Part shown: positions 5,002 through 60,530 of the stretch, piece by piece
Numbering within the stretch: position 1 is the stretch's first letter
How the letters are laid out: each line of letters starts with the position of its first letter
DNA from: Chloranthus sessilifolius
Lineage: Eukaryota; Streptophyta; Magnoliopsida; Chloranthales; Chloranthaceae
DNA length: 64,000 nt
NCBI GenBank assembly: GCA_021018995.1
Contig: CM037588.1
Span: forward strand, 140,737,725 to 140,801,724
Direction: 5' to 3'
Translations under genes and position numbers: made by a program
Notes under the pieces: model-generated
What the model saw: only the letters and a program-made list of their open reading frames with translations
Told to the model about the DNA's origin: nothing
The model's database searches: none

Positions 5002-5700
5002 TATTGAATAAGGTTTAATCCCAACCACAGGTGTCAATCGATTGAGTTTGGAAAAATCAATCGATTGAGTTTAAGAAGTCAATCAATTGACTTCTAGGCG
5101 GATCCAGATCTGCAGGTTTGAATTTTGGCTATTTTAAAAGATTGCCTTAGCCGAAATTTCCTAATGTGTTCTTAGGAGCCATTTTTGGAAGAGTTTTGAA
5201 TACTTGCAAAGTTTAGAAGATTTGTGAGTTATGTTTCCAAAAGAGTTTAGTGCCTATTTGCAGAAAGTTTCTCTGGGGGTTCTAGGCAATTGTTTTGAGA
5301 AAGTTTTCAAGAGAGAAAACTGGTGAGAATACTTTGAGAGAAAAGTATTAAAGAAAAGCTTGGGGATTGAAGATCCGATCGAAGCCATTCTTGTGTCGGA
5401 ATCGTGATTATATTCCGACAGATCTCTTCTTTGTTTTTGAAGGACTGTGTCCTTGGTTTAACAACGGGTTTATTGTTGAAGATCGTGCTAGATATTGATT
5501 GAGTTTGTACTAGAAAGAAGAGAGTGTGTGCGTTATAAACATTCATAAAATAGTGCATATACTCCCGTGGACGTAGCCCTCGATTGGGTGAATCACGTAA
5601 ATCTTTGTGTTGTGTGTGTGATTATTTCATTGCATGAATCTTCTTATTTTTTCGCATTCATCGTGATAGAGAGTTCGTAAAATGGGTAGAACTCCTAACG
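5002..5700 (+). repeat. 3' LTR of Copia-A
   Basis: Begins just after the polypurine tract GGTGGAGA (4993-5000) and ends ATTCCTAACG-like, matching the 5' remnant over its last ~400 bp. The normal TG start and CA end have decayed. It carries three CAATCGATTG-type dyads near its start (5035-5089). Confidence 0.78.
5035..5089. promoter_or_regulatory. Three CAATCGATTG dyads at 22-23 bp spacing
   Basis: Dyads CAATCGATTG (5035-5044), CAATCGATTG (5058-5067) and CAATCAATTG (5080-5089) lie near the start of the LTR, with centres 23 and 22 bp apart. In Copia-B, the same family, the matching LTR position holds CGCTCGAGCG dyads instead. They are probably binding sites for a dimeric DNA-binding factor; this is inferred from symmetry, spacing and position in U3. 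Confidence 0.6.
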
Positions 5701-20668: not shown

Positions 20669-20934
20669 CTCGCGCGAGCGAGCACTATTCATCGTTCGAG
20701 CGATCACTCAACCTCGCTCGAGCGATCATAAATGAGGCTCATACTATCAAGCAAGCGATTATAAACAAGGCCTTTTTCATTTCACACGACCCTCACTCGA
20801 GTGATCTTCCTCTTCACAAAGTTCCTCGCTCGAGCGAGGCCAGAACTATTTCTCTTATATATTTTATCCTTCCTCGCTTGAGCGAGCCATTTTAACCGCT
20901 CGAGCGAGGAGCGATGACAGTAATTGCTCGATCG
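20669..20934. promoter_or_regulatory. CGCTCGAGCG dyad cluster in the 3' LTR
   Basis: Dyads of the form CGCTCGAGCG or close variants are centred at 20673.5, 20697.5, 20719.5, 20798.5, 20831.5, 20879.5 and 20901.5, with weaker ones at about 20752 and 20929. Two adjacent pairs (20697.5/20719.5 and 20879.5/20901.5) are exactly 22 bp apart. The partner LTR shows the same pairs at 30686.5/30708.5 and 30867.5/30889.5. Each dyad holds CpG sites. Confidence 0.75.
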
Positions 20935-29184: not shown

Positions 29185-31540
29185 TGTGACAGCTCGAATT
29201 TTGATACCTCGAAACCTGTGCTATCAGCACGGCTTTCTAAGCCGTTCCCCCAAAGTCCATACGGAACATTGGTATAATCAAGCCATCACTACTCAAATTG
29301 AAACATGTAACTGAACAACATGAAATAATTATATGCTAAACTAAAGCAAACGCTCAAAAGACAGTTCTTCTTCCATGCCAATACATGAACAGAAGAATCG
29401 ACCCGAACCATCGGTGATAATCTGGATCACCCTAGATGGTTCGCCAAAAGAATATATCATTTAATTACATCTTTTCCAAAAAGTGGCTTGACATTCCAAG
29501 CCGTACAAAAGGCTCTCAAAACTCACACTCAAAGTACGCACAGGTCCTCTAGAAGAAGTCTTCAGGAGGAGACTCTAACTCTTCCCCAGGCACGTAATCC
29601 GAATCCCCTGGATCTACGTCTCCCGAAGCCTCAGCAGCCGCAAGCAATGGACCTACGACGTATAGTCTAAAAGGGGTGAGCTACATCCTAGCTCAATAGG
29701 GAAACATCAAGTGAACATATAAGTCAATTTCTCATATATTCTAAAATAATTTAAAGGCATGATTTATCTAATGGAATTGCTGAGAAGACATTTTAAATAA
29801 CTGAAAGATGTACTAGATGCAACTGTTGCTTCACATGGGTTTATTCATTCTCAACTTGCTGATATTAGTTACTAATTCGGCCTAATTACTTAAATCTTAA
29901 CTTAAATATTCTCCAACTTACTATAGAGTCGGGCACCCGATAGAATACCCTCCATCGTCGTCTAAATAGATAATTTTCATATCAGTTTCTTTCTTAAATA
30001 CCACTCAGTTCCCTTTCCAATAGGCGATGGGGTTTCTAGTCTCATACACATTCCTGGGATGTCCAAATTAGTGTACGGATTGGCCGTCGTACCGGTCACG
30101 GATATTCTGCCGAGTTAATCATGGGTATCCCACCACGTTGGTGGGGTATTCTGTTCAAACCTTAAATAACAAAAGTATCAAATGTGTGCTACATATAGTT
30201 GTTCACCATGTAATTATGCTAATTCATATCGATTAGGCCTTATCAATCTTTGTTCACTTTTGTTTTACAATGTCACATACATCCCTGGGATGTCTAAGTC
30301 AATCACATCATACAGATGCCTTTATTATATTTTCATCCCTTGGGGATGTCTCATTTTCATTTATTTACTTGGTGTTACACACACAAACACATTTAAGGAT
30401 TCACATTTTGATGCACAAATATTCATTTGAATCACTCTACATACACGCTTTTGAAAATTGAAATACATGTTCAAGGTGTCCTACCTCAACGTAAAGCTAT
30501 CATTTAACGTATCGTCGTTCCCTAGGGAATCAAATACATCTAACACACACCAAACCTACATTGCATGTGCCATAGATACCCTCAGAAAAGTCCCTAAAAA
30601 TCTTGGGAACTATAGCTTCCAAGAATAATAAAAATAAAGTAAAATTCTATGTAGTAGCTCGCGCGAGTGAGCACTATTCATCACTCGAGCGATCACTCAA
30701 CCTCGCTCGAGCGATTATAATGAGGCTCATACTATCGCACGAGCGATTATAAACGAGGCCTTTTTGACTTCACGCGACCCTCGCTCGAGCGATCTTCCTC
30801 TTCACAAAGTTCCTCACTTGAGCGAGGCCAGAACTATTTCTCTTATATATTTTATCCTTCCTCGCTCGAGCGAGCCATTTTAACCGCTCGAGCGAAGAGC
30901 GATGACAGTAATTGCTCGATCGTTTCAAGAACTACCCCCAACCTCATTTAATACCCTATTTAGACATCAAAACAAATCTACCTAACAATTAATACTTCAT
31001 CTAAATCACATATAAACATATACATACCTTGGATTTATGGATCTCTTCTAGATTTGATCCAAGATCAACCATACCAAATGAGGGTTTCAAAACCCTTCTT
31101 CCAAACCTTTTCTTAATCCTTCCCAATCTCTCTAGACTAAGGAATCTTCTTCACTTTCATCACCATCATCATCACCCCATATATTAGAAATCCCTAAGGT
31201 GAATCTCACCTACTTCTCAAGGATCATCGTATTTCTAGCTACCTTTTAATAAAACTCCTTTTTTTTTTCTTCTTTCTCCCTATCTCTCTCTCTCTCTTTC
31301 TAAGCTCAACAAAACAAGTATGGGAGACTCCTCCCCTTTCGCTCACATATCTTAACTAGTGTGTTAATCACACACATACTTCCTAAGTGCTTTGCATCCA
31401 CTTGAACTACTTGCCAAACATATATACCTAAGAGTGTATATATAATTTTTTTTTTTGTTTTTCCCCTGTGCACCACAATGCCATAGTATTGTTCATGGCA
31501 CACGTGACCTGTACTATACACAGAAATCATGGATGTTACA
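29185..31540 (-). repeat. 5' LTR of the chromovirus
   Basis: Plus-strand start TGTGACAGCT and end GGATGTTACA. It is the full-length partner of 19192-21556 and contains the same dyad cluster (about 30657-30922), TGAGCT hairpin (near 29685-29705) and acidic frame (29556-29664). Differences between the two LTRs are mostly transitions. Confidence 0.93.
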
Positions 31541-34384: not shown

Positions 34385-34609
34385 TAAATCAGCATCAAGA
34401 GCATCTGGTAGTTTGACCCTAGTCAGAAAGAAACTGATATTTCTAGTCTATAACAAGAAATCCTTTTGTAAATTCATGCTTATAGTAGCTTCATACCATT
34501 CAGCATAAAAGAAATACATGAAGCTGCATCTTGAGCTTAAGCATTTCACGTTGTTCATTATATCCTGTCATTTAAGATATTTGTTATACGTTGTTACTCT
34601 GTTTTAAAT

Positions 34610-34859
34610 CAAGTGATCCCGCTAACTCGGGAGCTTGAGATTCTCGAATCAAGTGATCCCGCTAACTCGGGAGCTTGACAAGTGATCCCGCTTACTCGGG
34701 AGCTTGAAGTATTCTAATCCAAGTGATCCCGCTAACTCGGGAGCTTGAAGTATTCTAGTCAAAGTGATCCCGCTAACTCGGGAGCTTGAAGGATTCTAGT
34801 CAAAGTGATCCCGCTAACTCGGGAGCTTGACAAGTGATCCCGCTAACTCGGGATCTTGA
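34610..34859. repeat. Seven copies of a 29-bp repeat with a CCCG..CGGG dyad
   Basis: The unit contains AGTGATCCCGCTAACTCGGG and then AGCTTGA. Copies begin about 34610, 34650, 34679, 34720, 34761, 34802 and 34831, so steps are near 40 or 30 bp, the longer ones carrying an ATTCTAGTC-type spacer. The core CCCG-N6-CGGG is a dyad. Confidence 0.85.
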
Positions 34860-35081
34860 CCTTGCTGTTCTCCTATTTTTGCCTGCATGTATATTCAGTT
34901 TCAGTTTGTTTCTCACACCTGTTACATCATGCATAAATTCAGTATTTCAGCATGTTATTCATAAATTTATTTTATTTTATACATCTCTATGAAAAAGTGA
35001 TAAACTGTCAATATAGAATAACAATGTGATATTCTCTACTGAGCTTTGATGATAGCTCATACCACGACTTCAATGTCTTAG

Positions 35082-50521: not shown

Positions 50522-50530
50522 GGAATTAAA

Positions 50531-50608
50531 GGGAAATTTACCTGATAGGCCCTGTTAGATGCGCCTTTAACGTCAGAAGCCCTGTAGTTTCACTTTTACC
50601 CAAACAAA
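50531..50608 (+). repeat. Left TIR of the MULE
   Basis: Starts GGGAAATTTACCTGATAGGC. It pairs with 59373-59450 and includes CGTCAGAAGCCCTGTAGTTT in both ends. Confidence 0.95.
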
Positions 50609-50896
50609 TCCGCTGCGCGCCGAGCTAACGCACGCCTGTAGGAAATGCCCAAACTACCCCCAATGTAAAAAATAGTCGTCCTCTTTTCCAATCATTTACT
50701 GTTTACTTTTTACTTTTTCGTTCGAAGTCAGTGGAGAGTCGTTGTCTCTTCGTGGACGCTAGCTTTCAAATCTACAACCTTCAAGTTACCAAATCTGTAA
50801 GTTAGAATTAAAATTACCTTCCATCGCTATAGATTTTTTTTTTCTCCTCTCTTTGGTGCACATTTTGACATAATTTTTTTAGGTTTTCCCATATGT

Positions 50897-51091
50897 AATC
50901 GATATCGATCTTATATGTAATCGATATCGATCTTATATGCAATCGTTACCGATTACATATTGAGTCGCTCTCGATTACATGTAGAGTCGTTATCGATTAC
51001 ATGTAGAGTCGATAACAATTATATATGTAGTCGTAATCGACTATATAAATAGTCGATGACGACTCTATAAAAAATCGATATCGACTCTCTA
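50897..51091. repeat. 22-bp dyad array 1 (5' region)
   Basis: Nine units in exact 22-bp steps, each with a core like ATCGATATCGAT or GTCGATAACGA(T/C) and an AT-rich tail such as TATATGTA. It lies between the left TIR and the small ORF at 51359. Confidence 0.92.
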
Positions 51092-51358
51092 TGAATATAA
51101 TTAATACTCATCATATGAACTAATTTCCCTATGTTATTACCCTCGATGTCATAATAAATCATACGAGGTTTTATATTTATCTCAGCCGACGTTCAATTTA
51201 TTGCCAACTACCCTTTTGTAAAACCATTATGGCAAGTTAGTTTGGAAGAATGAGTAAATTTAATACAACGATTCATATTCCACCATCTAGGAGCTTTAAA
51301 TACAGGTTTAGTTCGTCCTTAGCAAACCTATCATCCCTACCAGCCCATATTTTTCCCA

Positions 51359-51643
51359 ATGTCAGACGACGAAGAAAAAACCTACTATAACCCAATCAAG
51401 TTCGAGCCTGTATGGGAGGACCCACCACCACCACCAGAACCAGATCCTCTGCAGTTCCTGTAGGACGAGTACGATGAAGTAATGGAGATTTTGGCGAAGA
51501 ACCACCCGCCTCTCCACCCCATCCACCACCTGCTCTTCATCCATCTTCCTAAATTTTGGTTAGAAGGGAAGGACCGCTTTTATCGAAGAATCTTCCTTAG
51601 GACATTGCTGCAAGATTTTCTTTTCATTTTTAATTGTAATTGA
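51359..51643 (+). pseudogene. Small acidic/proline-rich ORF in the MULE
   Basis: Begins MSDDEEKTYYNPIKFEPVWE, then a five-proline run and PEPDPLQFL, an in-frame TAG at codon 35, and continues DEYDEVMEILAKNHPPLHP to a TGA at 51641-51643 (95 codons). The TAG fits CAG decay. It is preceded by array 1 and followed by array 2. I do not recognise the protein. It could be a third element gene, as VANDALs also have, or an exon of the downstream gene. Confidence 0.4.
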
Positions 51644-51783
51644 AAAATTATGAATGTAATTGAAAATTTTTGCAAGTAAATGAAATATTTTGATTCAATG
51701 GCGACTTCATGAAATCTTCTGAGTTAGTAAATTATATATTTTCTATATAAACAAACATTTTGTCTTCATTGCGACTTTATATT

Positions 51784-51975
51784 GAGTCGATGGTGATTTC
51801 ATTTGTAATCGATATCGATTACATCTAGACTCGATATCGATTACATATAGAATCGGTATCGATTATATATAGACTCGATATCGATTACATCTAGAGTCGG
51901 TATCGATTACATATAGGGTCGATATCGATTATATATGTAATCGATAACGATTATATATGTAATCGATATAGCTTT
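51784..51975. repeat. 22-bp dyad array 2 (upstream of the DUF1985/Ulp1 gene)
   Basis: Nine units in 22-bp register, for example CTCGATATCGATTACATCTA, ending about 90 bp before the ATG at 52068. It is positioned like a promoter-proximal array. Confidence 0.92.
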
Positions 51976-52892
51976 TATATATACATTTTATTCAATATTT
52001 AAACCCTTGTTAGTATGGGGCTCAGTCCTTTCTTTTTTATTACAGTTCATTTCAAAAGGCTGTCAAGATGGTTGTACATCGAGTTGTTGCCAAGTGTTCG
52101 CCCAGTGCCACTTCGAATCTCTACGAAAATGCTACCCCAGCTCGGAAGAAGATGCTGAGAGATTCCGTTTTTGGTGAAATATTTCAAATGCCTAAGGGTG
52201 TGGGATTTCTTTTTGATGTGGTGGATGAGATGTTGACATTTTGGATTGAAAAAAACTACTTCCGAATTGGGAAGACTGATGTCTATCTTTGGAAGATAGA
52301 CATTGCATTGATACTGGGCCTTGCCGTAGTTGGCCCATAAAAGTATACCCCATCCGTTAAACCATTGGAAGAACAAACCATTCAATACAAATACTTTCGT
52401 GGAATGCCTCCTGGAAAAATTCTCCGGTCTCATATAGATGCTGCAATTTGTAGAGCGAAAAGTGATGAGGACTTCGTAAAGTTGTCCCTTCTATTTGTAC
52501 TATGCATATTTCTCTTCCCCGGGTCCCACCATCAGCTTTCGGAAGACCACATCGACCTCATCGATGATGTGGAGAACTTTAACCGAACTTTGTAGGGTCT
52601 GCATGTCTACCAAGACTTGATCGAGTATATAATGAAGGGCGCGGCGAATAGAAAGACTGCCGAGATGGATAAAGCCCTGAAGACGTACAACATATATGAA
52701 TGCATATGTGTACTTCAATGGTGGGCTTATGAGATCCTGCCCGATATATCGCCATCCCAGCTAGGCCTCAAGGACCCTTTCCCACGGCTGCTGAAATGGT
52801 CGGACAGGGCGCAGTCAAGGATCAAAGGTTACACTCGCGGACAGATGTTAGACAGCAAAGTATGAGGTCTATTGCCAATTCAAAAAGCAACT

Positions 52893-53150
52893 TACCGATT
52901 CATTCTAGAATCGATAACGATTCATTACAGAATCGATAACGACTTTTTAAGAAGTCGATAGTGACTCAGTACAGAATCATTATCGACTACTTAGGAAGTC
53001 TATAGCGATTCATTTCGGAATCGATAACGACTTACTAAGTAGTCGATAATGATTCATTAAATAATCGATAGCAATTCATTAACGAATCGATACCAATTTA
53101 TTAAATAGTCGGTACCAATTCTTTTCATAATCGAGAATGATTTATTATAT
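52893..53150. repeat. 22-bp dyad array 3 (intron 1)
   Basis: Eleven to twelve units in exact 22-bp steps, for example AATCGATAACGATTCATTAC, filling the intron between exon 1 and exon 2. Confidence 0.92.
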
Positions 53151-53829
53151 ATACGATCATTTTATTCTGTTATTCACCATGTTTCCTTTTCTTTCAAAAA
53201 GTTCGCGCTCCCCTCGTGCCTCAGGGCTTTGAATTAGAGATACCCGTGTTAAGAGAATATCTACGGGTTCAAAAGGAGGTTGGGGGGAAGAGGAAAGAAC
53301 CGGTCAAGAAAGCTGTGGAAGAGATGCGGCCGAAGAAGAAAAGAAATTATATTCCGATCGAGAATATTGATGAAGAAGAATGGGATGACGCATCGACGTC
53401 AGAAAAAGAACCCTCCTCGAAAAAGGGCCCCGTCCATGTCGGAGAGGGTCGGCCAAGAACTAGGAGAGCCACCAAGGAGAGCCTGGCAGTGAAAGATAGC
53501 CCAGCTGAACCGTCCACCTCCAATGATCCTTTGATGAGGAGGGTCGATCATTTGATGATGGAGAACTTGAAGCTCACCCAAAGAGTGAGCGATTTGGAGG
53601 GAGAGAATAAGGCTCTGGCTAAACGTTGCGCTTCTGTAGAGAAACTATGCAACTCCTTCAAAGAGAGGCTAAACGTTGCGCTTTTGCGGAGTTGCAGAAG
53701 TTAAATCACTACAACTCTTTGGTTAGAAAGGGCCAGTCGAATATAAAAGAACTCCTTGAAAATTTATTTGAGGCGAGACCTAAGGTATGTGTTGAAATCT
53801 GGTTTTATAGGTTTAGTTTTGTTAACATA

Positions 53830-54062
53830 AATCGATATCGACTGTATATAGAGTCGATAACGATTATATACACAATCGTTATCGACTTTATATAGAGTCG
53901 ATACCGATAATATATGCAATCGTTATCGATTATATATACAGTCGATATCGATTTTATTTACAATCAATATCGACGATATATATAATCGATAACGATTATA
54001 TATAAAATCGATATCAACTATATGTACAGTCGATAACGATTATATTTAAAATCGATTTGAAC
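53830..54062. repeat. 22-bp dyad array 4 (intron 2)
   Basis: About eleven units such as GTCGATAACGATTATATACA in 22-bp register, filling the intron before exon 3. Confidence 0.92.
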
Positions 54063-54797
54063 TTTTTAAAATATGGACCAAAAATTAATTCTTATTTTGC
54101 ACCATTATTTCGATATACAGGATGTGGCTATGGAGGAGTTGATATCGAAGGTGTGCGACACAGCCGTCGATAAGGAACCATCAGCTCCTGCGCATCAGGT
54201 TCCTCCTCCTCCCGTTGATGAGGTGACGGCAGCTGCTGACGAGCAGCCTGAGACTCAAACTGATAAGGGTCCTGCTGGTGAAGAGGAAACCTCTTTCCAA
54301 TTACCTCACCAACAAGCTGAGCCTCGCTTAAGACCTAGAAAAGCAAAACTCAGCAAAGTAATTGCCGTCAAACCTAAGGCACAGCGAAGGGTAGCGGCTG
54401 AAAAGAAGCCTACCGAGAAGGCCAACGAAGGACCAAGCTAGCGAGCGGACCCAAGGCTCATTTCCATTTGGTCCAGGTCTCTTTGAAAGATGCTCTCGAG
54501 CTTCCACCGATGACAATGAGCAAAAATATATGCTAGACATATGGAACAAGCCTCTGAAGCAGGACGAGTAAGTTATTCTTCCCTGAATACTTAACTTTAT
54601 TATTATATATTTATTGTGAAGATTAGTTAAGTTGGCCATTTTTTTTACAGAGAATATGTAAACACTGTCGGCAAGTATAAGCTGGTGGTGCAATCCTTCA
54701 GATGTCTGGCGACCACGCAGTACCTAGATAACTTTATAAGTTTAACATACTGTAGGCAAAATCAAGAATGGTTAAAGCTGTCGACAACTCGAAAAAG

Positions 54798-55012
54798 AGT
54801 CGATATCGATTCATTATGGAGTCGATAACGATGACTTACATAATCGTTATCGACTCTCAAATTAATCGATATTGATGGCTTTTAGAGTCGATAACGATGG
54901 CTTATGTAATCATTATCGACTCTTTAACTAATCGATATCGATTCATTTGAGAGTCGATAACGATGACTTAAGATATCGTCATCGATGACTTATAGAGTTG
55001 ATAACGATTATA
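54798..55012. repeat. 22-bp dyad array 5 (intron 4)
   Basis: Ten units such as GTCGATATCGATTCATTATG in 22-bp steps, in the intron before exon 5. The two short introns of the gene (55346-55421, 55563-55641) carry no array. Confidence 0.92.
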
Positions 55013-56059
55013 TATTTTACTCTAACTGCATATTTAAATCTAACTGCATTGGTTTCAGGTTATGGGAGCCTACCTGAGACATTTGGAAGTAATTGATGAT
55101 AAAATTCATCCTGATAAAAATCTCAAAAACTTCCTTATGGACCCTGCCGCGCTGACGTACATGGGCTATGAACTGAGAGATTTCAACAAGTTCATGCTTG
55201 CTGAAAAATTATACAACTAATCGATCGAGGTTCAAGTTCAACGGTGGGCTGTCTATAGACAAAAAGAGACCGGAGGGAAGAAGCTGATGAAAACTTTCTT
55301 CTTCAATGAGCTTCAGAATCTGTGGGCTCACGAATGCAGCATAGTATGCTTTTATCCTCTTTATAATTATTCTTTTTAATTTTTCTATCATACCCTTTGA
55401 GATTATATTGCTTTTTTGTAGATATTTATGCCAATACATTCAGAACAACCACTACACTGGGCGCTTGCAATCGTGAAGGTAGTCGAACGATCGATAATGA
55501 TCATCGACCCTATATTTAATAGGCCCTCTAAGGAAAGATATGTGTCCCAATTGCAGGCGCTGGTAAGATATTTTGCTTAGCATATTTTTTATTATTGTTA
55601 GCTTAGCATATCTGACACTCCTCTCTATTATTTCGAAACAGACCCAATACCTTCCCGCGATTTTATATTCGTACGGTGACTCCGCTGCACTGATCAAGAA
55701 GAACTATCCTTGGCCATCTAGTGACTGCCGGATCAAAGCCCTCCCCCGACAGACCAACTCGTGTGATTGTGGAGTGTTTGTTGTGAAGTATGTCGAGTAC
55801 TTCATGATGGGGAAGAAATTTGACTTCGTGCAATTAGATATAGATAGGATCAGGGCAGAAATTTTGTCATATATTGGCTACATACACAGGCGATGGCGGA
55901 GTACTGGCGATGGACAACAAAAAGGAGGGAGAGTAGCAGTAGTGTGGTTGTATTTTAATATTTTTGTAAATGTAAATGAAATATTTTTTCTTAATGAATT
56001 ATTTTGAATATAATTGCACTATTTTTATGTAGCTGTGGTTAAAAAGTAGAAATCACAGC

Positions 56060-56365
56060 CATTATCGACTATATATAGAGTCATCATCGACTATATAACT
56101 AATCGGTAACGACTCTGTATGTAATCGCTATCGACTATATATAGAGTCGTCATCGATTATGTAACTAATCGGTAACGACTCTTTATGTAATCGCTATCGA
56201 CTATATATAGAGTCGTCATCGACTGTATCCATAATCGATACCGATTCTTAAATGAATCGATATCGACTTTATAAATAGTCGATGGCGACTCTATATAGAG
56301 TCGATATAGATTATGGATACAGTCGATGACGACTCTATGATTCATCGGTAAAGACTATATTACAG
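56060..56365. repeat. 22-bp dyad array 6 (between converging genes)
   Basis: Fourteen consecutive 22-bp units without slippage, for example AATCGGTAACGACTCTGTAT and AGTCGTCATCGATTATGTAA, between the 3' ends of the protease gene and the transposase gene. The longest array. Confidence 0.95.
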
Positions 56366-56553
56366 TAAAAAAATATGGATTCTGAATTTCTCGTTTACAT
56401 TCAATCTATCATTATTAAAAATATACACTGTCAACCCATCGGTCCCACTACCGTGCAGCTCCTGCAGTTGTGACCATATTCACTACACCTGCTACACTAT
56501 AGTGCCCTAACCTCACCCTTAGACCTTATCCTTCTCTTCCTCGGACAGCCAGC

Positions 56554-59043
56554 TTACTTTTGGTAATAATAGGGTGGTCTCACTTTCATATTTTCAGGGA
56601 GTTGCTCTGCTTGGAACTCCCATTGACTTTTATCGAAGGTGGGAACCCATTGCTCGTCGTATATTTGTCTACAGCAAGCGGTGAAAAACCATTTCTCACA
56701 AAAGTTATGATAGTCGTAACGTCTTCGATTGATGGCTGCCACGGCATGGGAGCAAGGCAAGCCATGAATGTGCCAACGGCGGCAACTACAGGTCTTGTGT
56801 TCCAAGTCAACGTGATGAATGAAATTTCCAGAATTGACTTGGAATTGATCGCGCCCGTATGGTTGAGCTCTCTTTCTACTGGCCCATTGCAACACCTTTT
56901 TCATGTGCGCGTCTGCTTTTGGGCAGAGAAGGGTGGTCCATTTCTTAGATATCTCTCTGCGTTTTTGAAAATGATCGACGACTTTCTCTCTAGTAGTTCT
57001 GATTAAGTCGATAATTGGTCTCTCTCGAGCTATCTTTAGCACGCTGTTTAAACTTTCGGCAATATTCGTAGTCAGGGAATCGTACTGCCTTCCTTCCATA
57101 TGTGCGTGTGCCCAATGCTTCGGATCTATTTTCAAAATATATTCTACGGCCTGAGAATCAGCAAGATCTTTCTTCATTTCGTTAATAAAATAATCAAATT
57201 TCTTTTTCGAATATGCACGGGCGGTGTACCACCATAGACCCTTCACATTGTTCCTGGGATACCTGTGCTGCAAATTTTGTGTCATATGTCACATGCAATA
57301 GTTGTGATATGCGTTAGGGAAGATACGTTTCACAGCATTTATTAAACCCTTCGACCTGTCCGTGATAAATACGAAATCTTCGTTAAACCCATCGATCACG
57401 AACGCACCTACCCATTCAAGAAACCACATCCACGTATCCTCTTCTTCTAACTCGACCACGGCAAATGCTAACGGTAATATATGACCATTACCGTCTTGCG
57501 CAGAGGCGATAAGTAGGATCCCTTCGAAACGTCCTCGTATGTGTGTGCCGTCTACAAGAAATATGCGACGAAGTGTATTGCGGTAGCTTCCGATGTATGA
57601 GTCAAAACTCCAAAAAAATCTTTAAAACTTACCGTCAAGAGTAAATTGAAAGGATGTTTGTATATTAGGATCTACCCTCTCCATCTCCTTCACGTAGGCC
57701 GGTAGATCGACAAATTGTCCTTCCCAACTGCCTCTAATATCATTAAGGGCAAGTTCTTTTCCCCTCCAAGTCTTTGCATATGAGATTTGCACATTATAAG
57801 CTTTTGCAATATCAAACATTATCGGCGTCGGTGTGTAGTCGAATCCTTCCATAAGTTTATCCCGTACATAGTTCGCTACGAAGGAGATTGTTGCATTACA
57901 GTGACCGTGCGGTCTGATCTTAGCGGCACCGCATGTGTGAGTACTTTTGAATGTCTTGATTTGGAAAGAATCGAGCCCAGTCAATTTAGAAGCATGTATT
58001 CGCCACGAACAATCGGGTTCGTAGCATCCGGCTGTCACTCGATAACTAGCGGTCCTCAAAGGCCGAATTTGAAAGTTTTTCTCCACCGCGTGCTCTTTCA
58101 ATGCTCTTTGAAATGTTTGTTTGTCTCGGAAGATCTCTCCAATTTTAAATGTCCAATTCCGATATTCAGTTTCCACTTCTTCATTGGAGGAGTCGCCCGA
58201 TTTCTCTAACATTTCGTAATCTCCGTCTACTAGGGGATTGTCAATGTCTCTCACAAAAATTTTCGGATCCTCTTTGATAAACCCATCCGGTTCGCCTTCA
58301 TATTCTTCTTCTAAGGTATCTTCATTCATGGCTTGAGGATGACTACGCCATTCACTAGTGGTGTTCTCGGGTGGTTGACTAGATCCTTCACCGAAGGAGT
58401 TCTGATGTGATTGACCAGATCCTTCACCGAATGGATAATGGCGTGGTTGGCTAGGCCCTTCACCGAAGGGGTTATCATGTGTATGGACATGGGGTTGAGT
58501 TACTCCGGTAATTCCCATCGATGGCATGGTAGAACATAAGTCTTGAGTAAATCAAGTTGTCCATCCACCGGGGAAGATATGACTGAAATCGTCGATATCC
58601 ACCACCCTTTCTGAAGTATAGTCTAACTATTGACTACATTGTTGTAACCTATGCATGTATTTTACTGGGTCATCATACGATTCAATCGGAGCATCGTTTA
58701 AATCAAATGTTGCTTTCCCTCTGCCATTGTTCACCGCAATATAACCGTCATCACCTAACGGGACGGTATCGTATACAGTTTCATCCTCAAACTTACATGA
58801 CTGAAATGAATGAGTCACAAAATCAGTCCCGCAGAGATTTACTTGTTCAGCTTCAACTGGGAAGGATGACGGTTCCTTAATGATGAAAACTTTTATAATG
58901 TCCACCGCGGATTTATAAAATGTAAATAAGGTAGCCAAATCATCAGAGTCCAAAATGTCGGCAACCACAGGCGTATTCACTATCTTCATATGAAACTTTG
59001 TGGAAACTGTTTCATCCGCCTTCGCAAAACTGGCAGTAGACAT
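56554..59043 (-). pseudogene. MuDR-type MULE transposase
   Basis: One 830-codon frame interrupted only by four stops (58627-58629, 58552-58554, 57622-57624, 57286-57288), no frameshift. The N-terminus starts MSTASFAKADETVSTKF; three NPFGEG/YPFGEG/NSFGEG repeats precede the MuDR DNA-binding domain (FRDKQTFQRALKEHAVEKNF, CYEPDCSWRIHA, THTCG). The MULE catalytic domain shows FLVDGTHIRGRF and FVFITDRSKGLINAV with the two Asp; NIAESLNSVLK holds a likely third acidic residue. A SWIM zinc finger CSCRRWHIHGLPCSHAVAA is near the C-terminus. Two of the stops fit CAG/CGA to TAG/TGA decay. It would cut and join the element at its TIRs. Confidence 0.93.
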
Positions 59044-59251
59044 TCGCCTTATGAATTGTTCATAAGAAATTTCAATTGAAATGTTAATAAGCCTCTACTG
59101 GCCACCTTGATACAAGCCATCATCTTTTACAAGAAGGCCATCATAATGACAAAGAAGGGGAATCCTTACGTCCGTCATCGTCTGTTTAAGAATGAGAAGC
59201 AAGGGGTCATAAGATTGATGAAACAAAAGAGAAAAGACGACTATAAATCTT

Positions 59252-59372
59252 AGCCGATTGTATATAGAGTCGTTATCGATTGTATATATGATCGATATCG
59301 ATTGCAAATACAATCGTCATCGACTCTATATAGAGCTGGTATACAATCGATATCGACTCTATATAGAGTTGG
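59252..59372. repeat. 22-bp dyad array 7 (right subterminal)
   Basis: About five units such as GTCGTTATCGATTGTATATA, directly inside the right TIR and upstream of the transposase start at 59043. One step near 59330 departs from the 22-bp register. Confidence 0.9.
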
Positions 59373-59450
59373 TTTGTTTGGATAAAAGTGAAACTACAGG
59401 GCTTCTGACGTAAAAGGCACATCTGACAGGGTCTGTTAGGTAAATTTCTC
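59373..59450 (-). repeat. Right TIR of the MULE
   Basis: Inverse of the left TIR, ending GGTAAATTTCTC, followed by the target duplication GGAATTAAA. Confidence 0.95.
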
Positions 59451-59459
59451 GGAATTAAA

Positions 59460-60530
59460 TCCTCCGGTATAAGGTACGCAGCTCGGGTACCACGTAAGCC
59501 GGTAGTCGCTGACTTTCTGGAATGTTAGCCACGTGGAAGTATCATGAGTGTTATCTAAAAGGTGCGTTATGATCTAACGATTTTTGATATAAAAGATTGA
59601 GATGAAAAATAATCTCCATCATATGATTAAAAAATAAATATAAAATTTCTATCATCTAAGTCATATTGTCAATTGTTGTATAAAATTAATGCCACTTCGT
59701 AAATCCAACATACCAATAATTCTAGATATCCTTTCACCACTTTAAAAAAGACGATGGTGACCGATAATTCTAGATATCCTTTCACCACTTTAAAACAGAC
59801 GATGGTGATAATACTTCGACCCAATTTTGGATAGAGTTTGATATCATGCCATCAAATCACACGAACACATGGTTACTCCAATGGCGTGTATCCCAAAAAT
59901 TGACCCAAATACCAAGAGTGTAGGGGCACGGGTAATTAATAACAACTCTTTCCTCTATAGAAATTATTTCAAGTTGCTGGTTATTCTCCTAAAACTCATA
60001 TATGGAAACTTTTGACCAATGAACACTATATAAAGTAGAGGGGATCCTCTATTAATCAATCTTCGTAGGCATAAATTTATTTTTCCTAAAACATAGACTT
60101 CTAATGATAAAAGTTTCATTTGTTAAAAGTTCGGTTTTAATATGAAAACCTAGCCTTTCGAAACGGCCCGAGTCAGACCCAAACGGACTGAAAACTGACA
60201 CCGAGCCGAACTGTTTCACTTTCGATTTTGGTAACTGAAAACTGGAAACATGCCCGATAGGGTGAGAAAACCAACCAAAACCTGAAAAAATAGAAAAAAT
60301 TTAAAAATAAAAAAAAGTAAAGAAAAACATGAAGAAAAATTGGAAACCAAACCTAACTGACCAAAACCTGAAAAAATAGAAAAAATTTAAAAATAAAAAA
60401 AAGTAAAGAAAAACATGAAGAAAAATTGGAAACCAAACCTAACTGACCAAAACCAAAATCTGATCATTTGAATTCAGCTTCGTATTAAGGGGGTGAGAAA
60501 TTCGGTTAACCGAAACTAAAATTTTTGAGA
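59460..60530. other. No gene seen; two tandem duplications
   Basis: A 45-bp unit (TTCTAGATATCCTTTCACCA and flanks) is repeated at 59716-59760 and 59764-59808. An A-rich unit of 86 bp (CCAAAACCTGAAAAAATAGA and flanks) is exactly repeated at 60275-60360 and 60361-60446. The rest is unassigned, with MITE-like ATCATATGATTAAAAAATAA near 59620. Confidence 0.6.

Follow-up and report, generated by a model that had tools for sequence, protein, structure and literature searches.

The window analysed here is a 64,000-nucleotide stretch of the Chloranthus sessilifolius genome (2.17 Gb; contig C5). It contains an 8920-bp Mutator-like element (MULE; 50531-59450) whose non-coding DNA carries seven arrays of a 22-bp dyad unit. 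Our strongest result is that a related clade of loci in the same genome (17 of them read) bears GCG-N4-CGC instead of TCG-N4-CGA dyads, again spaced at 21-22 bp, or two turns of the helix. From sequence comparison we consider it probable that the arrays are binding-site clusters for the MULE's own dimeric PMD/DUF1985-Ulp1 protein, probably related to VANC21, which counteracts silencing in Arabidopsis. The data are explained most simply by a VANC-like system of target arrays in a MULE that bears terminal inverted repeats (TIRs); within it, the identity of the binder, dimer binding, cooperativity and demethylation are what we infer.

A scan with the unit consensus returned 69 in-register dyad units in seven arrays (Table 1); two of the units score only 7 of 10 against the consensus. 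Almost all steps within arrays (61 out of 62) are exactly 22 bp, the sole exception being a 33-bp step in array 7. A score of 9 or 10 out of 10 is reached by 68 sites in the whole window and by 65 in the MULE. All but three of the latter (50823, 55490 and 58591) lie in the arrays, which thus hold 62. When the element was resampled 200 times with an order-1 Markov model, sites scoring at least 9 occurred 1.15 times on average and never more than four times: the array pattern is real and far beyond chance. The arrays occupy all seven non-coding stretches of the MULE, and the consensus scan found none in its coding segments; the isolated match at 55490 falls in a predicted exon and that at 58591 between two transposase reading frames. 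Periods of 22, 44 and 66 bp were also recovered without any consensus, by Tandem Repeats Finder (TRF) and by autocorrelation. The observed/expected ratio of CpG is 2.99 in the arrays, compared to 0.86 in the rest of the MULE and 0.69 in the rest of the window. These results agree with the original prediction, made from the letters of the window, of about 70 units in seven arrays that keep a 22-bp register and spare the exons, and its array coordinates are correct to within approximately 20 bp. It had also proposed the autocorrelation analysis, and had counted 14 steps without slippage in array 6; slippage is indeed absent there, but the array has 14 units and hence 13 steps.

The 22-column profile of the unit is nearly identical to its own reverse complement (r = 0.985), as expected from the degenerate dyad first proposed. 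The conserved part spans 14 bp, A-RTCGNTANCGAY-T, and the remaining 8 bp form a variable, AT-rich spacer. Two dyad centres lie 11 bp apart, each on a TpA, the second of them within the spacer.

We searched for other copies of the family using array 1, and the 40 that were scored out of 3035 first-look candidates, window included, all matched at 94-100%. Twenty further copies were fetched as 9.1-9.3 kb stretches, most of which lack the right end. Over the window copy and these 20, 1089 of the 1121 steps equal 22 bp or a multiple of it, and the register is therefore retained in the relatives of the element. The 32 irregular steps indicate that the register decays in these 21 copies, most of which are broken. 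The copies also differ by the gain and loss of entire units: the count for array 7 is 5 in the window and 7, 7, 9, 10 and 10 in the five copies that contain it in full. At window position 51499 (element offset 968) several other copies (for example L009, L011, L016 and L019) have an extra copy of the array 2 block, of which the window copy has one.

The original prediction suggested selection on helical phase, rather than simple recent tandem duplication, as the reason for the fixed spacing. Mean unit identity within arrays is 64-76%. We measured the similarity between units at different distances by permuting unit order in arrays 1-6, with array 7 left out (30 lag tests, uncorrected P-values). 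Neighbouring units resemble each other in array 1 (lag 1, P-value < 0.0005), and blocks of 44 bp are detectable in array 4 (lag 2, P-value < 0.0005), as are blocks of 66 bp in arrays 5 and 6 (lag 3, P-value = 0.010 and 0.001, respectively). The block signal of array 2 is marginal (0.043) and array 3 shows none. The units have diverged by at least 218 substitutions (parsimony on a neighbour-joining tree) with a single irregular step. At the rates of 0.044-0.080 small indels per substitution measured between the 21 copies, 9.6-17.4 small indels would be expected for 218 substitutions (P-value 7e-4 to 5e-7, rough values because changes were treated as independent and pairwise comparisons share history).

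Between copies, small indels per substitution amount to 0.044 in the arrays, 0.080 in other non-coding DNA and 0.071 in exons, with none at all in array 1 and about 0.07 in arrays 3 and 4. This comparison omits array 7 and all pairs in which a segment is shorter than 0.6 or longer than 1.6 times its length in the window, contains N or differs by more than 25%. Gaps in multiples of 22 bp are about 18 times more frequent in arrays than in other non-coding DNA (0.020 and 0.001 per substitution, respectively). The lower array indel rate between copies fits selection in an active lineage that was relaxed afterwards. Simple recent duplication as a full account is ruled out by unit identities of 64-76% with one irregular step, and helical selection without duplication by the significant block structure of arrays 1, 4, 5 and 6. 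Given the shared 44- and 66-bp blocks and the gain and loss of units between copies, the arrays were built by duplication, and their register was apparently maintained by selection. The history of the arrays is one of both processes: selection on phase is supported by the deficit of indels relative to substitutions, but the proposed contrast with duplication does not stand.

To characterize related elements, we read 22 of the 150 loci that were scored among 4046 candidates of a DUF1985 search, and in the fetched loci we also looked for half-site types other than TCG. This sample is not random, as the first four loci were chosen for variety and most others for a profile match like that of locus L032. 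Seventeen of the 22 match the protein domain of the window at E <= 3.1e-22 (32-44% identity), and in every one of them two GCGN4CGC-like dyads stand 21 or 22 bp apart at least once. None of the five more distant DUF1985 loci (two of them covered over 3.3 kb only) has GCG- or TCG-type pairs at 21-22 bp. Seven of the 17 matching loci, those with shuffle controls, contain 2, 6, 7, 7, 8, 20 and 30 pairs, compared to at most one in 60 resamplings each. The window element has 49 exact TCG..CGA and 2 exact GCG..CGC sites; the corresponding counts are 0 and 17 in L032, 0 and 7-8 in L035, L036 and L039, 1 and 4 in L033, and 2 and 6 in L034. The motif of the window family can be written A-R-T-CG-N-TA-N-CG-A-Y-T and that of the GCG clade A-R-G-CG-N-YR-N-CG-C-Y-T. 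The outer base thus differs jointly in both half-sites between the clades, and the two-turn step is unchanged, although it is not universally 22 bp as relatives use 21 and 22.

GCG units were picked by their motif and by a neighbour at 20-23 bp, which makes the six defining columns and the step circular; outside the defining columns, the profile is still dyad-symmetric (r = 0.81). In addition, a motif-free period of 22 or 42 bp is detectable in the non-coding DNA of 8 of the 17 loci (L032, L033, L035, L036, L045, L046, L051 and L052), with the coding 42-bp repeats of L032-L034 and L036 excluded from the count. In the window, L032, L033, L035 and L036, an array lies shortly downstream of the exon that bears the domain. 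In a tree built from 12 loci plus two copies of the window family, the five distant loci are set apart from all others with support 1.00, and the GCG loci from the window family with 0.985. The original prediction had named random unit lengths or near-identical units in relatives as signs against phased binding sites; what the relatives have is a spacing kept at 21-22 bp with a differing motif.

Other repeats occur in these loci. More distant DUF1985/Ulp1 loci carry different short tandem repeats, of 26 and 55 bp (L029 8024-8100 and L030 1880-2013), which could be target arrays of their own. Genes of the GCG clade contain long CCC-rich repeats of 12-36 bp (L032 3834-4188, L033 2074-2426, L035 2225-2442 and L036 2177-2541). 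They read as proline-rich in L032, and TRF reported none in the window gene.

From splice-like signals, which give the exon boundaries and the joining of exons, we infer that the plus-strand parts of the MULE form a single interrupted gene encoding an N-terminal domain, a zipper-like linker, low-complexity sequence and a Ulp1 protease domain. This gene and the transposase gene, whose DBD_Tnp_Mut, MULE and SWIM domains all score above the Pfam cut-off, are both broken in the window copy. Three of the 20 other copies (L014, L016 and L019) have an exon 1 that is open throughout; that of L027 also lacks stops but begins in a different frame. For L016, the open exon 1 scores 40.2 bits against Pfam PMD (cut-off 34.9). 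A search of proteins with this exon scored none of 272 candidates. A profile of both array-bearing clades (8 sequences) has VANC21 (PDB 9lnj, 9lnk) as its top PDB match. The same protein is the top PDB match of a neighbouring DUF1985 profile (5 sequences, E = 5e-6), to which the array-clade profile aligns with 99.1% probability, both profiles being shallow. Homology of the MULE protein to VANC21 is therefore likely, if partly indirect.

The leucine-zipper-like stretch of the predicted protein is compatible with a dimer, and in the window it scores below the bZIP_1 cut-off. Repeats of 42 bp that read as two-heptad coiled-coil units (for example VKVLQLEQENNKLK) are found in L032 (3399-3478), L033 (1624-1718), L034 (1673-1757) and L036 (1672-1756), with the frame confirmed for L032 only. 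The presumed dimerisation zipper may thus grow by tandem duplication.

Several features of this system are known from VANDAL elements of Arabidopsis. According to Hosaka et al. 2017 (PMC5735166), the motif bound by VANC21 is YAGTATTAY, and targets of VANC6 contain AGTTGTCC or AGTTGTAC; in both cases the motif is tandemly repeated in non-coding DNA and associated with loss of methylation. RNA-directed DNA methylation and VANC are reported to have opposite effects on VANC target regions (Sasaki et al. 2023, PMC10398659), and a review describes Ulp1-bearing VANC genes (Kaonashi) as acting likewise (PMC13317346). A crystal structure of VANC21, then unpublished, was mentioned in a meeting report (PMC8756742). 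As in the VANC21- and VANC6-VANDAL systems described in these papers (PMC5735166, PMC10398659), a MULE encodes a DUF1985-related protein, a short motif is dense in terminal, intergenic and intronic non-coding DNA, the repeats grow in tandem, and the motif differs among related families, here TCG..CGA and GCG..CGC. In contrast to VANDALs, the MULE of the window has a dyad of 12-14 bp with two CpGs instead of a 9-bp motif in one orientation (PMC5735166), a fixed two-turn step, TIRs of 76 bp instead of degenerate ones (PMC10398659), and a PMD-type domain in one predicted gene with Ulp1. Because its protein misses the DUF1985 cut-off and VANDALs have one-orientation motifs and degenerate TIRs, we describe the element as working like a VANDAL with its VANC rather than as a member of that group.

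Kaonashi (KIU) elements share with it a DUF1985-related domain and Ulp1 in one gene, and according to the review they recognise motifs within the non-coding part of their own sequence; they are described as non-TIR MULEs, whereas the present MULE has TIRs (PMC13317346). The host proteins MAIN and MAIL1 have in common with the MULE protein the PMD Pfam domain; they take part in transposon silencing, and a promoter DNA motif is tied to the genes that depend on them. They are, however, host genes, for which the parts of the source considered here describe no tandem target arrays in a transposon (PMC7156037). The open-licence literature yielded no account of two-turn arrays in MULEs, and the texts examined contain no mention of a dyad or a constant step. 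The main text of Hosaka et al. 2017 (PMC5735166) lacks the terms spacing, interval, period, palindrom and dimer.

If the arrays are targets of the element's own protein, a homodimer paired through its zipper would read the dyad A-RTCGNTANCGAY-T, with one subunit on each TCG half-site. Dimers would then align two helical turns apart, and arrays, unlike isolated sites, would recruit the protein strongly. Binding over the 5' region, introns, intergenic gap and subterminal DNA would remove or block the silencing marks of the host and so permit transcription and movement of the MULE. Turnover of the arrays would proceed through tandem duplications that each span one to three units, with off-register units selected against in the active lineage. 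Protein and sites would change together and give rise to new families, as the TCG...CGA and GCG...CGC motifs at equal spacing might exemplify. More tentatively, and with less confidence than we place in an element-encoded binder, PMD/DUF1985-Ulp1 proteins of MULEs in general might be zipper-paired dimers that form a two-turn lattice on one face of the DNA and keep silencing off it. A change in their specificity might consist of one symmetric base-pair switch, from T to G at the outer position of the half-site, that is carried through tens of sites without altering the spacing of the lattice.

Some observations weigh against an element-encoded dimer as the binder. Single units fall slightly short of the palindromy expected from column shuffles (4.13 compared to 4.40 of 6 core pairs, standard deviation 0.08). 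Exact palindromes are therefore unsupported as the selected feature, and each half-site looks constrained by itself. Array indels between copies occur at about half the rate found elsewhere, which indicates that the present copies are not strictly constrained. The ten short loci of the GCG clade were analysed without shuffle controls, and some of them have only one or two GCG-type pairs; three of the ten also hold a single T- or A-type pair at 21-22 bp, and in L037 the exact TCG..CGA and GCG..CGC counts are equal (2 and 2). On the side of the protein, the open exon 1 of L016 reaches 24.4 bits for DUF1985, below the cut-off of 35.1. The direct profile link to VANC21 is weak (E = 0.014), and the single L016 sequence does not find VANC21 in a PDB search. 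The zipper criterion is satisfied by 33 out of 5000 shuffles of exon 2, and a zipper on the coding strand was found in one of 12 relatives scanned (L032). Finally, the VANC21 motif YAGTATTAY has no dyad and is arrayed in one orientation, as reported in PMC5735166.

Among the alternatives, the arrays might be binding sites of the transposase or its cofactor that serve transposition or self-regulation, like the subterminal repeats of other DNA transposons. Arrays 1 and 7 do lie near the ends of the MULE, and array 7 abuts the right TIR. Repeated motifs are also known from Muta1, Spm and MuDR: some MULEs, such as Muta1, have short subterminal tandem repeats (PMC5225508), and TnpA and MURA are described as acting in transposition and lowering methylation (PMC10398659). 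We nevertheless regard this explanation as unlikely, since five of the seven arrays (2-6) are internal, three of them in predicted introns, and introns and the intergenic gap are filled here as well, whereas the repeats of Muta1 are subterminal. Moreover, L032+L041 (14.0 kb) and L036+L042 (8.3 kb) combine arrays with PMD and Ulp1 domains; neither yielded a detectable relative of the window transposase, although one may be too diverged or lie outside the stretch.

Slightly less likely still is that the arrays are read by a host factor or through DNA shape (TpA every 11 bp, CpG pairs, AT spacers), with nucleosome phasing or exclusion, enhancer function or attraction of a host repressor as the outcome. 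The TpA at both dyad centres and the high CpG ratio of the arrays are in line with this. So is the comparison of CpGs between copies (skipping columns with fewer than 12 letters or without a majority), which differ less in array cores (6.1%) than in other non-coding DNA (8.7%) or exons (12.0%); spacer CpGs, few in number, differ most (30 out of 124). A symmetric difference between TCG and GCG that tracks the clade of the encoded protein is, however, not predicted by a single host factor or a general shape. Very improbable, finally, are neutral repeats, in which a 22-bp founder was duplicated repeatedly and its register merely inherited: the block structure, the turnover of units between copies and the decay of register in some copies agree with them, but the indel deficit, the conservation of the 14-bp core next to a variable spacer, the presence of arrays in all seven non-coding stretches and the equal step in a clade with another motif do not.

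Table 1. Features of the MULE, with positions in the window
Feature	Position	Strand	Evidence
Left target-site duplication GGAATTAAA, 9 bp	50522..50530	.	read directly
Left TIR	50531..50608 (aligned part 50533-50608)	+	69/76 identical to right end
Array 1, 9 units, 5' region	50898..51085	.	consensus scan
Array 2, 9 units, upstream of plus-strand gene	51786..51973	.	consensus scan
Predicted exon 1, PMD/DUF1985-type domain, two stops in window copy	52069..52860	+	
Array 3, 11 units, predicted intron	52910..53141	.	consensus scan
Leucine-zipper-like stretch, predicted exon 2 (7 heptads, 5 Leu)	53531..53659	+	
Array 4, 11 units, predicted intron	53831..54062	.	consensus scan
Array 5, 10 units, predicted intron	54799..55008	.	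consensus scan
Ulp1 (Peptidase_C48) match	55723..55860	+	E=1.3e-9
Array 6, 14 units, between converging genes	56058..56355	.	consensus scan
Mutator-type transposase in pieces (SWIM, MULE, MuDR DNA-binding domain)	56554..58551	-	
Array 7, 5 units including a 33-bp step, next to right TIR	59247..59357	.	consensus scan
Right TIR	59373..59450	-	TIR alignment, 76 bp
Right target-site duplication GGAATTAAA, 9 bp	59451..59459	.	read directly

Further repeats lie elsewhere in the window. An 86-bp tandem duplication with 100% matches is found about 0.8 kb outside the MULE (60274-60454), and tandem AAGTGATCCCGCTAACTCGGGAGCTTGA units with periods of 29, 41 and 82 bp occur at 34607-34860, likewise outside it. 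A 22-bp tandem repeat of another sequence (CTCGCTCGAGCGATCACTAAAC-like) is present at 20669-20732 and 30664-30715, approximately 10 kb apart, and a similar one in L031 (1156-1215); the two sites in the window may be the paired long terminal repeats of a retroelement. Outside the described arrays, ATCGAT or TCGATTAATCGA is contained in short repeats at window 5033-5090 and in L032 at 242-349.

Recognition of the arrays by the MULE's own protein would place a VANC-like target system outside the Arabidopsis VANDALs, one whose dyad, two-turn step and clean half-site difference between related clades make its anatomy much more regular. It would thereby become testable how VANC-like proteins locate kilobases of DNA through a short motif and how the protein changes along with its motif.

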